64,000 bases of DNA from Fidelibacterota bacterium. GTDB lineage: Bacteria > Fidelibacterota > SORT01. The stretch covers positions 62,001 through 126,000 of the forward strand of contig JACZYG010000001.1 of NCBI GenBank assembly GCA_022571215.1, written 5' to 3'. Numbering within the stretch: position 1 is the stretch's first letter; each line of letters opens with the position of its first letter. Both the position numbers and the translations under genes were made by a program. Below are positions 17,957-27,102 of the stretch, in pieces. The notes beneath the pieces were generated by a model that was not told the DNA's origin, did no database searches, and was given only the letters and a program-made list of their open reading frames with translations.

Positions 17957-18325
17957 ATGGAAAGACGCTCATTTATGGTTAAAGCTGGCGCGCTATTCTC
18001 CTTACCGCTCATAATTACAGAAATAGGTTGTGACAGTTATGGAGATAACGATACGATGTCGCCCAGCAGTAATGATGGAAATTCGTTTTCGGTCACATCA
18101 ACCAGCGATTCGGGACATAGTCATACTATAACCCTATCCTCAAATAACGTGGATAACCCGCCAAGCAGCGATGTTACGCTTAAAACGACAAACAATTCGG
18201 GTCACACACACGCTATCACCCTCATGCAAAGCGATTACGAGAGTCTTGCCACGGGAAAAACGATCATTAAAACGTCAACAAACGATTCGGGGCACACTCA
18301 TACATTCAGTATAAAAGTTCCATAA
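17957..18325 (+). CDS. Small lipoprotein with three Gly-His-x-His repeats
   Basis: 122-residue exported protein of unknown function. The N-terminus (RRSFMVKAGALFSLPL) looks like a twin-arginine or Sec signal ending in a lipobox-like EIGC, so the mature protein probably starts at a lipidated Cys near residue 25. The mature part is Ser/Thr/Asn-rich and holds three related units, SDSGHSHTITL, NNSGHTHAITL and NDSGHTHTFSI, each with an HxH pair. These may bind a metal or act as beta-strand repeats. AAAGGA lies upstream of the ATG and a candidate promoter precedes it. It is monocistronic, followed by a possible terminator. No family recognised. Confidence 0.75.
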   Translation: MERRSFMVKAGALFSLPLIITEIGCDSYGDNDTMSPSSNDGNSFSVTSTSDSGHSHTITLSSNNVDNPPSSDVTLKTTNNSGHTHAITLMQSDYESLATGKTIIKTSTNDSGHTHTFSIKVP

Positions 18326-19618: not shown

Positions 19619-20899
19619 ATGGTCAATCCGATTATACAAAAAAGTTCCGAACAGGATAAACAACTTGAGATAGACCATCTTAATTCAATAATCAGCGCTA
19701 CAAGACTCATTAATTCCTCCCTTGATCTTGATGAACTTATGGAAAGAATTCGCACGATAGCCCGGGATGAATTGCAGGCTGAGAAGGCGACAATTTTCCT
19801 GGGAACTGAAGAGAATCAGAAACTTCATTCAGCATATCTTGAAGACACAAATTTAGACATAAATCTTGCATTCGGCTCAGGTTTAGCCGGATTGGTTGCT
19901 AAAACGGGGAAAAGCATTGTAATTGACGATGCCCAAAACGACCGGAGATTTTACAAGGGTGTAGATGAAATTACAGGATACGTGACCAAAACCGTTGTCT
20001 GTGCGCCATTGTATAATAAGGACCAGAAGCTCATAGGCGTTTTTCAGGCGCTTAACAGTAAAAATGGCAAATTTTCTGAAAGTGACCGACGTTTCTTGGA
20101 AGACCTATCAATTCAAGCGGCTCTTGCGATAGAGAATGCTTTTCTGTACGCGGAGGCGCTTGAAAAGAAAAAACTTGAAGAGGAGATGAACCTTGCCCAT
20201 GATATACAGCAAAAATTACTTCCTCTTGTTTCTCCTCAAATAACCGGATACGATATTTACGGCTTGAATATTGCCGCTCAGGCTGTGGGCGGAGATTACT
20301 ACGACTTTATCGAACTCGACAAAACCTCTCTGCTCTTTGCCCTGGGTGACGTTTCCGGAAAGGGGATGGCTGCCGCTCTCCTGATGGCAAATTTGCAGGC
20401 AAGCCTCAGGGCACAGGCGGGAATTCATTCGCAAATTATTCATCTGACTTCTACGCTGAACAATCATATTTGTAATTCTACCTCCTCAACCCAATATATC
20501 ACTTTTTTCTCCGGAGTACTCGACACTGAAAATAATGAGGTCAAATATTGCAATGCCGGGCATAATCCTCCTCTATTGATTAAAAATAACGGAGATACGG
20601 AACTATTGGACGGAGGTGGAATACCTCTCGGATTTATTCCTGATACAATTTATTCGGAATCAATTACTTTCATCGAAAAGGGTGATATTCTTGCTGTTTT
20701 CTCAGATGGGATTATTGAAACCTTTGATGCAGATGAAAATGAATTCGGTGAATCAAGGTTGGCAGAACTTATTCATAAACTTAAAGCTTTTGAAAGTAAA
20801 GAGATAGCTCGGAAAATAATTGATGAACTAAAGGAATTTGCCGCGGGGAATCCAGCGGCGGATGATGTTACCTTAATAATAATAAAAAGGGCTATTTGA
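19619..20899 (+). CDS. GAF domain plus SpoIIE-type PP2C phosphatase
   Basis: Cytoplasmic regulator of 426 residues. A GAF domain (about 25-175) is followed by a short helix with DIQQKLLP, the linker motif of RsbU-like proteins, then a PP2C/SpoIIE phosphatase domain (about 200-425). Metal-binding motifs are intact: GGDYYDF, LGDVSGKGMAAALLMA, NAGHNPPLL and FSDGIIE. Such proteins usually dephosphorylate an anti-sigma-factor antagonist. No STAS or HPK gene lies beside it, so its partner is not shown. It is the first of the plus-strand signalling genes. The ATG has no strong ribosome-binding site. Confidence 0.92.
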   Translation: MVNPIIQKSSEQDKQLEIDHLNSIISATRLINSSLDLDELMERIRTIARDELQAEKATIFLGTEENQKLHSAYLEDTNLDINLAFGSGLAGLVAKTGKSIVIDDAQNDRRFYKGVDEITGYVTKTVVCAPLYNKDQKLIGVFQALNSKNGKFSESDRRFLEDLSIQAALAIENAFLYAEALEKKKLEEEMNLAHDIQQKLLPLVSPQITGYDIYGLNIAAQAVGGDYYDFIELDKTSLLFALGDVSGKGMAAALLMANLQASLRAQAGIHSQIIHLTSTLNNHICNSTSSTQYITFFSGVLDTENNEVKYCNAGHNPPLLIKNNGDTELLDGGGIPLGFIPDTIYSESITFIEKGDILAVFSDGIIETFDADENEFGESRLAELIHKLKAFESKEIARKIIDELKEFAAGNPAADDVTLIIIKRAI

Positions 20900-22387: not shown

Positions 22388-22573
22388 ATAAATGGTTTAT
22401 ATAGCCCGGTGCATTTCCACCTTATTGTGTGATATAAACCAAATTCCTACTTATATTTATTTTATTTAATTACTGATAATCTTATTTTTTTAGTGCTTTA
22501 GCTTAATAAAATCATTATATTATCGCTGAGGCTCCCATCCTTAGAATACAATTATTACTGATTTAGCGATTGC

Positions 22574-22590
22574 TGGCACATCAATTGCAT
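22574..22590 (+). promoter_or_regulatory. Sigma54 (-24/-12) promoter
   Basis: TGGCAC (22574-22579) and TTGCAT (22585-22590) have the exact GG-N10-GC spacing of sigma54 promoters and match the TGGCAC...TTGCA consensus. It points to the lipoprotein gene at 22859, leaving a leader of about 260 bases. No other gene is convincing in the 22388-22858 gap. I did not find a clear enhancer palindrome by eye. Confidence 0.8.
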
Positions 22591-22858
22591 TTTATCTGTT
22601 TGCTGATTGCCAGTATTGTACATAAAGACGAATAAACAATGTTCGTTTAACAAATGTACTGATGTAACAAAATAACTATTGATCTCGGTGTGATGCGTAT
22701 CATGGTCAACAGGATCAATTAACAGGATATTATATATTGAGAAGTATATGCTAAACATAATCTTACGCCTTAGAGAAGCAGAAGGATTATTTGTGATCAG
22801 ATGTATTGGTCACACAAAACTAATTTCAAAATGAACCAATAACAAATAGGGTGACGCC

Positions 22859-23446
22859 ATGAAAAAAACAAACATGATTCCTATAAGCATTATGGTAATA
22901 GGATTTATTTCACTCATCGGGTGTAGCGGCGATATGCTGACAGCTCCCGGAGTTGAGAATGAAAATCAAACCGTTGCACAGCAGAGAGGTATACCGACAG
23001 ACCAACTGAATTTGGTCCCGTTGAGACCTGAAATTGCTGAGCAACTCCGCCAATTGACAAAGCATGGTTATGACGAAAAATTAATCACGGTCCATAAGGG
23101 TGGAAGTGTAGGCGGTAAGCACACATTTAAAAATAAAGTCAAAATTCCTGCTAAGGCTTTAGAAGAGGATACCTGGATTTCAGTCAGAGTTTTATGCATT
23201 GACGGTAAAGAGCAATGCGGAGCGACAGTTGAATTTTTGCCAAATATGACTTTCCGGGCGGATGTTACGATCACACTGTCATTTGACGTGTTGGATTTTG
23301 ACGGTGATCCAAATTTACTTAAAGTCCTCTGGTATGATGATACAACAGGGCTGTGGGTAGAGGTAGATGATCCAAAAATCAATTATAAACATAAAACAGT
23401 ATCCATACAAGTAGATCACTTTACAAGATATGCCTGGAGTTTATGA
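22859..23446 (+). CDS. Secreted lipoprotein with ZU5-like beta domain
   Basis: 195-residue exported lipoprotein. The signal (MKKTNMIPISIMVIGFISLIGC) ends in a lipobox with Cys near residue 22. The mature part has a short helical region, then beta-strand sequence (about 75-195) resembling ZU5-type domains: GGKHTFKNKVKIPAKAL, ITLSFDVL, and a C-terminal VDHFTRYAWSL of a type common in such domains. The role is unknown; exported beta-domain proteins of this kind may be surface or regulatory. GGGTGACGCC precedes the ATG. It is the first gene behind the sigma54 promoter and so the probable main target of the adjacent NtrC-type activator. Confidence 0.75.
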   Translation: MKKTNMIPISIMVIGFISLIGCSGDMLTAPGVENENQTVAQQRGIPTDQLNLVPLRPEIAEQLRQLTKHGYDEKLITVHKGGSVGGKHTFKNKVKIPAKALEEDTWISVRVLCIDGKEQCGATVEFLPNMTFRADVTITLSFDVLDFDGDPNLLKVLWYDDTTGLWVEVDDPKINYKHKTVSIQVDHFTRYAWSL

Positions 23447-23500: not shown

Positions 23501-24757
23501 ATGGAAACATTACATAATAAATCTCTTCAGGCATTTCTTGAAAATATCTCGTTATTGGCAAACAAGTATTGCGGAAGAGTATTTGCTAATAAAATGAGAA
23601 CTCTCAGAACTGAAAGAGAAAGGCTGTTAAATAACAATTGGCGTAAATTACCTCCTGATGCCTTGCTTTCCGCGGAGAAGCAAGAAATTTTCAGAGTAAT
23701 AGATTTCGACACAATTGTTCTGAACGCCTCAGAATACCTGAAGGAAAAAGACTACGTTGTATTTTTATATGACGTATCAGAAACAGCGATCAGCTTCAGC
23801 GAAATGGAAAGAGCTCAACGGCTCCTTCATATGATCGTTACGAAGCTAAAAAGTCGCGCGACTAATCGTCTTCTTGCAAAGGCGCATCAAAGACTTGGAG
23901 ATATCTCTTTTTACCGTAATAACTGGGTGACGACGCTCAGACAATATAAAAAGAGTCTCGATCTCTTTACAAAACTGAAAAATAATGAGGGCATGGCACA
24001 TATTAATAGCTCTATGGGATCTGCCTTGGTTGAGCAAGGTGAAGTTGCTAAAGGAGAAAAACTTCTTGTAAAAGCAAAAGCCATCGCCAAAAGAGCCAAA
24101 CTGGTTAGATTACTTGCTAAGATCGATGTCAATCTCGGTAATGTCTTCAATATGCGAGGCATGTGGAATGAAGCATTGGTTTGCTATAAGGAATCGCTTT
24201 CGTTAATCGGCAGGAATCGTGATGATGCCGAACGAGCGAAACTATACATTAATATGGCAATCGTTTATAAGGCTCGCGGAGAATATGACAAGGCTCTTGA
24301 GTACTTTCAGAGAAGTATTAAATTCTCCACGAAGGCAAATGATCTCTACTATAAAGGCTTATCATACCTCGGAGAGGCCGATCTATATTGCCGCAAAGGA
24401 GATTTAGCTGCCGGTACGGCGCTTGCCACTACCGCATTCAGAATCTTCTCAGGGCTTGGAGATCGTCTTAGCGTAGCCGAAGTCTATAAGGTATTCGGAA
24501 TCATAAATCGCCAGAACAAGAGATATGATACCGCATTATCGTATTTTGAGAACAGCAAGCGGATAAACGAAGAATACGATAACCCGCTTAATCTTGGCGA
24601 AACCATGACTGAAATGGCGAAGCTTTATGGTATGAAAGGCGGAGAAACTGATAAAGCGCGCGAAAGCGCCAAATCTGCAATCTCTTGTTTTAAGAGAATA
24701 CATGCAGGTCTGAAAGTTACTGAGGTAAAGGAAATGTTAGCCGCATACACAGCCTGA
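23501..24757 (+). CDS. TPR-repeat protein
   Basis: 418-residue cytoplasmic helical-repeat protein. From about residue 115 to 400 it is made of tetratricopeptide repeats (for example GDISFYRNNWVTTLRQYKKS, MAIVYKARGEYDKALEYFQR, FGIINRQNKRYDTALSYFEN). The N-terminal 100 residues are helical with no named domain. No enzymatic domain or membrane segment is seen. Such proteins bind partner proteins. Lying 54 bases after the lipoprotein gene on the same strand, it is likely part of the same sigma54-driven transcript. A strong hairpin lies beyond its stop. Function unassigned. Confidence 0.85.
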   Translation: METLHNKSLQAFLENISLLANKYCGRVFANKMRTLRTERERLLNNNWRKLPPDALLSAEKQEIFRVIDFDTIVLNASEYLKEKDYVVFLYDVSETAISFSEMERAQRLLHMIVTKLKSRATNRLLAKAHQRLGDISFYRNNWVTTLRQYKKSLDLFTKLKNNEGMAHINSSMGSALVEQGEVAKGEKLLVKAKAIAKRAKLVRLLAKIDVNLGNVFNMRGMWNEALVCYKESLSLIGRNRDDAERAKLYINMAIVYKARGEYDKALEYFQRSIKFSTKANDLYYKGLSYLGEADLYCRKGDLAAGTALATTAFRIFSGLGDRLSVAEVYKVFGIINRQNKRYDTALSYFENSKRINEEYDNPLNLGETMTEMAKLYGMKGGETDKARESAKSAISCFKRIHAGLKVTEVKEMLAAYTA

Positions 24758-24815: not shown

Positions 24816-24845
24816 CGGGCTGGAGAATGAAAATTCTTCAGCCCG
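24816..24845 (+). terminator. Strong 13-bp hairpin with GAAA tetraloop
   Basis: CGGGCTGGAGAAT pairs with ATTCTTCAGCCCG (one G-T pair) around a GAAA loop, 58 bases past the TPR stop and before the hybrid kinase gene. There is no T-run after it, so it may be a terminator of the Rho-dependent or processed kind or an mRNA-stabilising element. Confidence 0.5.
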
Positions 24846-24910: not shown

Positions 24911-26392
24911 ATGGAAGTGGAGGAACATCTAAAGACAATATTTGATAATATCACCGAGTTTATTGCTTTATGTGACAGTGATTTTAATATCATATATTCC
25001 AACAAACCAGCTGATATTGTCTTAGGTCAAAGTCAAAGTATTGTCGGCACGAAGTGCTATAGCAGTTTTCGAGGTAAATCAGAAAAATGCGCTGATTGTC
25101 CATTAGTGCCCTCCATGGAAAGTGGAACAGTCATTCCATTAGAAAGTTTTGACGAACGATTCGAAGAATATTTTGAGGAAAGAGCGTATCCGATAACGAC
25201 GGAATCAGGAAGATTCGACGGATTTGTACTTATGAGCAAAAACTTAACCAAATCCAGAGAAATCGAAGAAAAATATGCTCAGGCAAAAAAAATGGCGGCA
25301 TTAGGTCAAATCAGTTCCGGTGTTGCGCATGATTTTAATAACGTTTTAACGGGCGTACTTGGAAGAGTGCAGCTTATTAAAAGACAGACTGATGACCCCA
25401 GAGTGCTGAAAAACCTCAAGATGATTGAAACGGCAGCTCATGATGGGAGCGCAACTGTGAGGAGGATGCAGGATTTCGCGCGGTTGAGAACGGATGAGAA
25501 ATTTATTTCTATTAACGTCAAGGAGATCATCGATGAAGTGTTAGCCTTAACTAGACCGAAGTGGAGAGATAACTCAGAAATGCATGGTGTGATAATTGAG
25601 CCTGTTGTTGAAATAGAGAAGGAAATGTATATGCTTGGTGATCCGTCTGACCTCAAAGGCGCATTCACTAATTTGATATTCAATGCAGTGGATGCGATGC
25701 CCGAGGGCGGCGTATTGAGCATTACAGCAAAAATTTATGATGAAAAGATAGTTATAGATTTTGAAGATACCGGTATAGGTATGACGGAAGACACCCTTGA
25801 ACGGATATATGATCCATTTTTTACTACCAAGGGTGTTAAGGGAACCGGGCTGGGGATGAGCGAGGTATACGGTGTAATTAAACGGCATCGGGGAGCAATC
25901 GAAGCGACAAGTAAAATTGGTAGGGGTACTAAGGTTTCTATCAGCCTACCGTCAGGAGAACGAGTATTAAAAATGGATGAAGTGGAAATCGAAGAAGACA
26001 AATATCTCAGCAAGATTCTTATAATAGACGATGAAGAGTATATACTCGATATGTTAGAGGAATTATTAGAAGATCAGGGGCACAGCGTCACAACTAGCTC
26101 GTCAACCTCAAATGGATTGGAGCTGTTTCAAAAATCAAATTTTGACGTGGTAATAACTGATCTCGGAATGCCCGAAATGAGCGGCTGGGAGGTGGCGGAA
26201 CGAATTAAAAAGTTGAACAGCGCCGTTTCAGTCGTACTGTTGACCGGATGGGCTTTGAATTTAGAGGCAGAAAAGATCAAGGAAAACGGTGTGGACTTTA
26301 CTCTCCAAAAACCGTTCGATGAGGAAAACCTGTATCAGCTAATCCAAGATGCAAAAAAATTGAAAGATCAAAGAACTTCCGATCTTTCCTGA
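24911..26392 (+). CDS. PAS hybrid histidine kinase with C-terminal receiver
   Basis: Cytoplasmic hybrid kinase of 493 residues with no membrane segment. A PAS domain (about 5-115) carries a CxxC pair (C60, C63 in KCADC) found in a subset of PAS kinases and possibly redox- or metal-responsive. A HisKA box has phospho-acceptor H140 (GVAHDFNNVL), a HATPase domain (about 245-348) has FEDTGIGM and GTGLGMSEVYG, and a receiver domain (367-485) has D373/D374 and acceptor D417. No output domain follows, so the receiver probably passes phosphate on or tunes the kinase. The NtrC-type protein 2.5 kb upstream is a plausible partner. Confidence 0.93.
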   Translation: MEVEEHLKTIFDNITEFIALCDSDFNIIYSNKPADIVLGQSQSIVGTKCYSSFRGKSEKCADCPLVPSMESGTVIPLESFDERFEEYFEERAYPITTESGRFDGFVLMSKNLTKSREIEEKYAQAKKMAALGQISSGVAHDFNNVLTGVLGRVQLIKRQTDDPRVLKNLKMIETAAHDGSATVRRMQDFARLRTDEKFISINVKEIIDEVLALTRPKWRDNSEMHGVIIEPVVEIEKEMYMLGDPSDLKGAFTNLIFNAVDAMPEGGVLSITAKIYDEKIVIDFEDTGIGMTEDTLERIYDPFFTTKGVKGTGLGMSEVYGVIKRHRGAIEATSKIGRGTKVSISLPSGERVLKMDEVEIEEDKYLSKILIIDDEEYILDMLEELLEDQGHSVTTSSSTSNGLELFQKSNFDVVITDLGMPEMSGWEVAERIKKLNSAVSVVLLTGWALNLEAEKIKENGVDFTLQKPFDEENLYQLIQDAKKLKDQRTSDLS

Positions 26393-26493: not shown

Positions 26494-27102
26494 ATGAGCT
26501 TATTTATAAATCCATATGATAAAGACCTACCTCAAAAAGTTCTTAAGCTCAAACCCATCAAGGGTTATTGTTTTATCATAGACATTGCAGGGTCAACAGA
26601 ATTAAAGGATATCGACCTCTCGAAGTGGATAATATTCATTTACAACACTTTTGCCAACATTATGGGTAACCTCTTTAATAAATTCACTCCCATCAAAAGT
26701 CTTGGTGACGCGCTCATGTTTTTCATACCAGAAGATGATATGCAGGACGAGAACCCGCTTACTCTCTTTCATGCTTTGTGGAACATTATTTCAAGCGATG
26801 AACCAAACCTCAAAGAGGTTAAAATTGGAGCGTCGTTTTGCTCCGATGCATATGATATTACGTTTGTTCCTGACAGCTACGATATTTACGGTAAAGATAT
26901 TGACCTCACGGCGCGTTTATCATCACTTGCCGAAAGCCAGGAGATCATCATGAACCAGGCGTGGGTAGAAAAGGTGCGGGAGGAGTACGAAAACGCGGGG
27001 AGACCGGAGTCATATCCCGAAATTGATCTTATCAGGGGTCCCTGGCCCATAAAGATAAGTGGTTTTAAGGAGTATCAAACTATCTATAAAGTTACTAAAT
27101 AG
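26494..27102 (+). CDS. Class III nucleotidyl cyclase-fold protein
   Basis: 202-residue stand-alone cyclase homology domain. It has FIIDIAGSTEL (first metal-binding Asp), IKSLGDALMFF (base-contact Lys and second Asp) and IYGKDIDLTARLSSLA. In the last motif the usual catalytic Asn of the VNLAARL-type segment is Asp, while the Arg is kept. It may therefore be a weak or altered cyclase or a non-catalytic nucleotide sensor. No regulatory domain is fused. It follows the hybrid kinase gene by 100 bases on the same strand, ending the signalling cluster. Confidence 0.8.
   Translation: MSLFINPYDKDLPQKVLKLKPIKGYCFIIDIAGSTELKDIDLSKWIIFIYNTFANIMGNLFNKFTPIKSLGDALMFFIPEDDMQDENPLTLFHALWNIISSDEPNLKEVKIGASFCSDAYDITFVPDSYDIYGKDIDLTARLSSLAESQEIIMNQAWVEKVREEYENAGRPESYPEIDLIRGPWPIKISGFKEYQTIYKVTK

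Follow-up and report, generated by a model that had tools for sequence, protein, structure and literature searches.

Related systems

In the ZraR and AtoC systems, an activator of REC-AAA+-Fis architecture is associated with tandem palindromic enhancers located upstream of a -24/-12 promoter, and the target stands beside the activator gene. A module of this kind is present in a window of 64,000 nucleotides (the whole stretch of DNA analysed) from a Fidelibacterota bacterium. It resembles ZraR and AtoC in architecture, enhancer layout and adjacent target, a likeness at the architecture level, but differs by its DNA site (GGTTNATATNAACC), its target genes and its activator loop (GAYTDA). Desulfovibrio vulgaris likewise has a genome with many sigma-54 activators for which targets were predicted, and the loops GAYTDA (DVU2275) and GAFTDA (DVU2106) were accepted there as functional, being among the variants expected to keep function (PMC4641369). 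Nevertheless, this regulome belongs to another phylum and the word lipoprotein is absent from the text searched. A literature search combining Marinimicrobia, sigma factor and lipoprotein found nothing. The type of regulatory device is a textbook one; neither the module nor its lipoprotein seems to have been described in the literature searched.

The features of the locus, by position in the window, are:

19619-20899, plus strand: gene of a GAF-SpoIIE (PP2C-type) phosphatase (Pfam SpoIIE and GAF over cut-off), syntenic in L078, L079 and L080
21005-22387, plus strand: NtrC-family enhancer-binding response regulator, REC - AAA+ - Fis HTH
22394-22407, no strand assigned: candidate enhancer (UAS) copy 1, GGTTTATATAGCCC
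22408-22421, no strand assigned: candidate enhancer (UAS) copy 2, GGTGCATTTCCACC
22427-22440, no strand assigned: candidate enhancer (UAS) copy 3, GTGTGATATAAACC, with a half-site conserved in four genomes
22485-22545, no strand assigned: two blocks conserved in an alignment of four genomes, TTTTTNTAGTGCTTT...CTATATTA and CCCATCCTTAGA
22574-22590, plus strand: very likely sigma-54 -24/-12 promoter, TGGCACATCAATTGCAT
22600-22858, plus strand: predicted 5' leader, about 259 nt
22859-23446, plus strand: predicted exported lipoprotein with lipobox, ZU5-like beta-sandwich (AlphaFold/Foldseek) and C-terminal HF(T/S) signature
23501-24757, plus strand: TPR protein (Pfam TPR), syntenic and co-conserved with the lipoprotein
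24816-24845, plus strand: stem-loop CGGGCTG(A/G)AG...CTTCAGCCCG between the TPR and kinase genes, -22.5 kcal/mol, with equivalents in G002, G003 and G004
24911-26392, plus strand: PAS-like - HisKA - HATPase - REC hybrid histidine kinase (Pfam, PAS_4 below cut-off), syntenic in many families
26494-27102, plus strand: class III nucleotide-cyclase-fold protein (Pfam Guanylate_cyc 22.1 bits, cut-off 21.9)

The predicted promoter and its conservation

On the plus strand, positions 22574-22590 read TGGCAC-N5-TTGCAT, with GG at 22575-22576 and GC at 22587-22588, so that the exact GG-N10-GC spacing claimed by the initial annotation is confirmed. The gene order is also as it had described, the site lying between the activator and lipoprotein genes, with the TPR, hybrid-kinase and cyclase-fold genes following. 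In the window this exact pattern is unique, and none of 100 dinucleotide-shuffled versions of the window contains it. Pattern searches, from which all genome-wide statements derive, found TGGCAC-N5-TTGCW six times in the 2.56-Mb genome and its reversed control twice, the counts for a looser pattern being 14 and 10. Other matching promoters, for which the annotation had advised a check, are therefore found as patterns but only modestly above chance, and a match alone is no proof of a promoter; the genome-wide count, too near the reversed control, was dropped as an argument. For the same reason, promoter identity was decided by position and conservation. Two of the six matches, including the window site, stand directly 3' of an activator gene and a third sits 1.3 kb downstream of one, while a one-mismatch site was found behind a fourth activator gene of this genome.

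The named records carrying homologues belong nearly all to Candidatus Neomarinimicrobiota (Marinimicrobia), MT.SAG.2 being the closest, and activator, promoter, lipoprotein and TPR repeatedly follow one another in this order across the phylum. A longer order (SpoIIE, activator, site, lipoprotein, TPR, kinase, cyclase) is shared by the only second species of the genus in which we found the locus and by two further genera of its family, with the contig of L080 ending within SpoIIE. In each of these family loci, TGGCAC-N5-(T/G)TGC precedes the lipoprotein gene. Among the 27 named loci with enough upstream sequence, 20 carry TGGYAY-N5-TTG at most 400 nt before the lipoprotein start, against 3 of 263 other ORFs of the same loci (Fisher 4e-22, a value that is indicative only, since these are related loci, including two that seem almost identical). 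Three of the seven named loci lacking the motif (L095, L096, L112) have a variant with one -24 base changed, plus an enhancer array, and the -12 element is less canonical in distant relatives (TTGT, TTGG). Paralogous lipoprotein loci without a neighbouring activator (L014, L017, L020, L022) are also without the site.

At 17957-18325, the window encodes an exported protein in which SGHTHT-like motifs are repeated and which has a double-arginine start as well as a lipobox-like cysteine. It is found near the module in L078 and L079 too.

The sigma-54 machinery and the probable enhancer array

The presence of rpoN, on which the annotation had made its reading depend, was verified: one RpoN is encoded in the genome (E 1.5e-54), with an intact RpoN box (ARRTVAKYR). 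Of 80 genomes sampled across the phylum, 76 have RpoN, among them all 51 near-complete ones. The adjacent activator scores over the Pfam cut-offs for REC, Sigma54_activat and Fis HTH, as expected of the NtrC family. Its loop 1 reads GAYTDA and not GAFTGA, which was counted as a tolerated variant; orthologues have GAFTGA, GAFTDA or GAFTNA.

The palindrome GGTTNATATNAACC emerged from an alignment of the gaps between activator and lipoprotein genes at nine distant loci. A matrix built from eight of them and applied to the remaining loci detected the palindrome in tandem, as two or three copies, in almost every one of these held-out loci, the copy starts often being 14 and 33 bp apart. In the window, the three copies at 22394-22440 are individually imperfect. 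As arrays with this 14/33 bp spacing, those of this genome and of G002, G003 and G004 beat all 100 shuffles, which preserve single-base composition only. The array begins 7 bp past the activator stop codon and precedes the -24 element by about 135-180 bp, within the range of about 80-200 bp at which an upstream sequence array was sought as a mark of a sigma-54 promoter, along with GG-N10-GC inside TGGCAC-N5-TTGC and an RpoN with its box. These patterns make the tandem array a likely enhancer, made up of probable binding sites for the activator. At L089 a weak triple array only was detected, and at L091 the promoter is present with no array within the stretch tested. Downstream of the array, one of the two conserved blocks at 22485-22545 carries a TATAGTG...CACTATA dyad in two of the four genomes.

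The promoter is very likely genuine, and so is its connection with the activator next to it. For the proposed sigma-54 control of lipoprotein and TPR protein by this activator, strong support comes from rpoN, conserved synteny, promoter and enhancer array. We consider it highly probable that a true sigma-54 promoter drives at least the lipoprotein-TPR pair and is switched by the adjacent NtrC-type regulator through the array, an exported 128-aa protein being a second target. In this mechanism, the nearby hybrid kinase, presumed from its neighbourhood to be the partner of the activator, would phosphorylate the response regulator, whose dimers would bind the tandem array. The activator would then form an AAA+ ring, loop the DNA and open the sigma-54 polymerase complex. 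Transcription would begin near 22600, the predicted start 12 nt past the C of TTGC, and would cover at least the lipoprotein-TPR pair.

The extent of the transcript

A variant compatible with this explanation is that the operon continues through the kinase and cyclase genes, so that the activator would feed back positively on its own sensor. The genes all share a strand, the kinase gene follows the TPR gene in many families, and the hairpin between them (CGGGCTGGAG...CTTCAGCCCG, 24816-24845) is without a clear T run in this genome. Against this, the hairpin is strong and conserved in four genomes of the family, and the gaps between TPR and kinase genes measure 88-153 nt, compared with about 54 nt between lipoprotein and TPR genes. 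The hairpin is likely an operon boundary or an attenuator, so kinase and cyclase may be outside a sigma-54 transcript that may comprise lipoprotein and TPR only. The longer operon is thus a tentative option, with somewhat less than an even chance. The cyclase-fold gene adjoins the module only within the family.

The lipoprotein and its partner

The lipobox cysteine is invariant in the 28 lipoprotein homologues. The AlphaFold model (mean pLDDT 83) had the ZU5 domain of ankyrin as its best Foldseek match (E 1.7e-5, TM 0.49 by query length) and matched GAIN-domain structures more weakly, so the assignment to the ZU5 fold denotes a fold similarity of a predicted model. With the Pfam ZU5 profile, the window protein gave no match and 2 of 28 homologues did (best E 0.0027). 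The fold comparison was thus informative where searching solved structures with a profile of the lipoprotein family had given nothing meaningful. H187 and F188 are invariant and T189 nearly so, forming a His-Phe-Thr/Ser motif before the last strand (window 23417-23443).

The position of HF(T/S) before the last ZU5-like strand resembles the autoproteolysis sites of ZU5 and GAIN domains. Autocleavage occurs at an HF/S motif in PIDD and Nup98, and at SF/S in CARD8 and NLRP1 (PMC3210808). The predicted fold and the H-F-(S/T) motif are shared with the ZU5 domains of ankyrin, PIDD and the FIIND of CARD8/NLRP1, but the window protein is a stand-alone bacterial lipoprotein, with no Pfam ZU5 match and with Thr instead of Ser in most homologues. 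By this analogy, self-cleavage at HF(T/S) is put forward as a hypothesis only. A more far-reaching view is that the module senses the envelope and is specific to the phylum, its sigma-54 activator controlling a self-cleaving ZU5-type surface lipoprotein that would work with a TPR partner and act as autoproteolytic ZU5/GAIN domains do in animal receptors; we hold this to be unlikely. We infer a function of the lipoprotein at the cell surface from its lipobox, and from published work in which sigma-54 is presented as controlling the bacterial exterior (PMC3162934).

A paralogous lipoprotein-TPR pair was also observed on another contig of this genome (G000:C67, L073:4945-7694), behind the gene of a predicted HTH regulator that is receiver-domain-like and not a sigma-54 activator.

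Other sigma-54-like sites and the choice of activator

The palindrome search returned twelve places in the genome, and a sigma-54 site adjoins only two, one in this locus and one on contig C18. On C18, site and enhancer precede the gene of the exported 128-aa protein, and among the best nine homologues listed this arrangement recurs in L190 and L191. Sequence patterns thus make this protein a probable second target, whose promoter and enhancer are of the type seen at the module. The protein (G000:C18:4226-4609, L067) belongs to a multi-copy family in which some copies only carry the sigma-54 site and enhancer.

Sigma-54-like sites are also found before proteostasis genes. TGGYAY-N5-(T/G)TG lies at most 160 nt before dnaK in 22 of 24 genomes, and before lon in the family. 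A stricter motif was found at most 200 nt upstream of 23 ORFs in the dnaK and lon loci, and all 23 are dnaK or lon. The dnaK site (G000:C19:48152-48167, L119, L125; L126-L148) was observed in nearly all Neomarinimicrobiota genomes examined, even in one of about 0.9 Mb (G009, L148). Other -24/-12-like sites stand about 60 nt before lon and hsp20 (G000:C50:83713, L070; C38:68493, L069) and about 50 nt before an HU-type gene (C67:5274, L073). The sites at lon, hsp20 and the HU-type gene are consistent with, and suggest, a sigma-54 proteostasis regulon. In a 2025 study, chaperones and Lon were predicted to be under sigma-54 in Bacteroidota and Planctomycetota (PMC12316311). There, dnaK, hsp20 and lon (COG0466) were concerned as in the present genomes, but Neomarinimicrobiota are not named (text searched as Marinimicrobi), and the lipoprotein-TPR module is separate, with its own activator array. 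A literature search on HsfA and lonD of Myxococcus yielded nothing of use.

Upstream of dnaK (24 genomes), lon and hsp20, no enhancer array was found, the dnaK regions scoring at background. The idea that the adjacent activator also drives these three genes was rejected on this ground, and other activators must be in use there. This bears on a further reading, in which the promoter is a real sigma-54 promoter that is activated by another enhancer-binding protein of the genome, where eight full-length sigma-54 activators are encoded. However, the array follows the adjacent activator gene so closely and travels with its orthologue. Most activator orthologues retain the recognition helix (SRE-T/K-x-KYR-x-KK), the array is missing where this helix is most changed (L114), and the helices of the other seven activators differ. 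Activation by another protein is accordingly quite improbable, and the adjacent regulator acting through the array is the reading that we keep.

The leader

The initial annotation had noted a 260-base leader that might hold regulatory structure; its length stands, at about 259 nt, and the structure is not supported. A cis-acting RNA element such as a riboswitch or thermosensor, acting as the main control, would agree with this length and with the 74% identity of the leader between two species of the genus. However, the long form is found only in this genus. Sister genera have leaders shorter than 100 nt, the promoter being placed only some 100 nt ahead of the start codon; about 180 nt of the long leader are thus genus-specific, while promoter and ribosome site are kept. 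No Rfam family matched the leader, its folding z-score is ordinary (-0.63), and no conserved structured element of a riboswitch-like kind was found in it. With its length varying between genera, the leader was rejected as a structured RNA, and control by such an element is very unlikely.

The view that the two hexamers are a chance pair and that a housekeeping sigma factor transcribes the lipoprotein gene, in line with the near-control pattern counts and a weak sigma-70-like match in the leader (22706-22733), is scarcely credible, since the position of the site relative to activator and lipoprotein is conserved across the phylum together with the upstream array.

Significance

Neomarinimicrobiota is a largely uncultured marine phylum in which few regulatory circuits are defined. 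In the present circuit, expression of an exported lipoprotein and of a TPR helper protein appears to be turned on by activator and promoter together. Promoter, activator, enhancer and two targets are predicted at base level, so that an in-vitro test of the circuit can be built from synthetic DNA and purified proteins. The dnaK and lon sites would extend the sigma-54 chaperone/Lon trend to another phylum. Across Neomarinimicrobiota rpoN is kept, even in genomes of less than 1 Mb, and dnaK is one of its likely targets.
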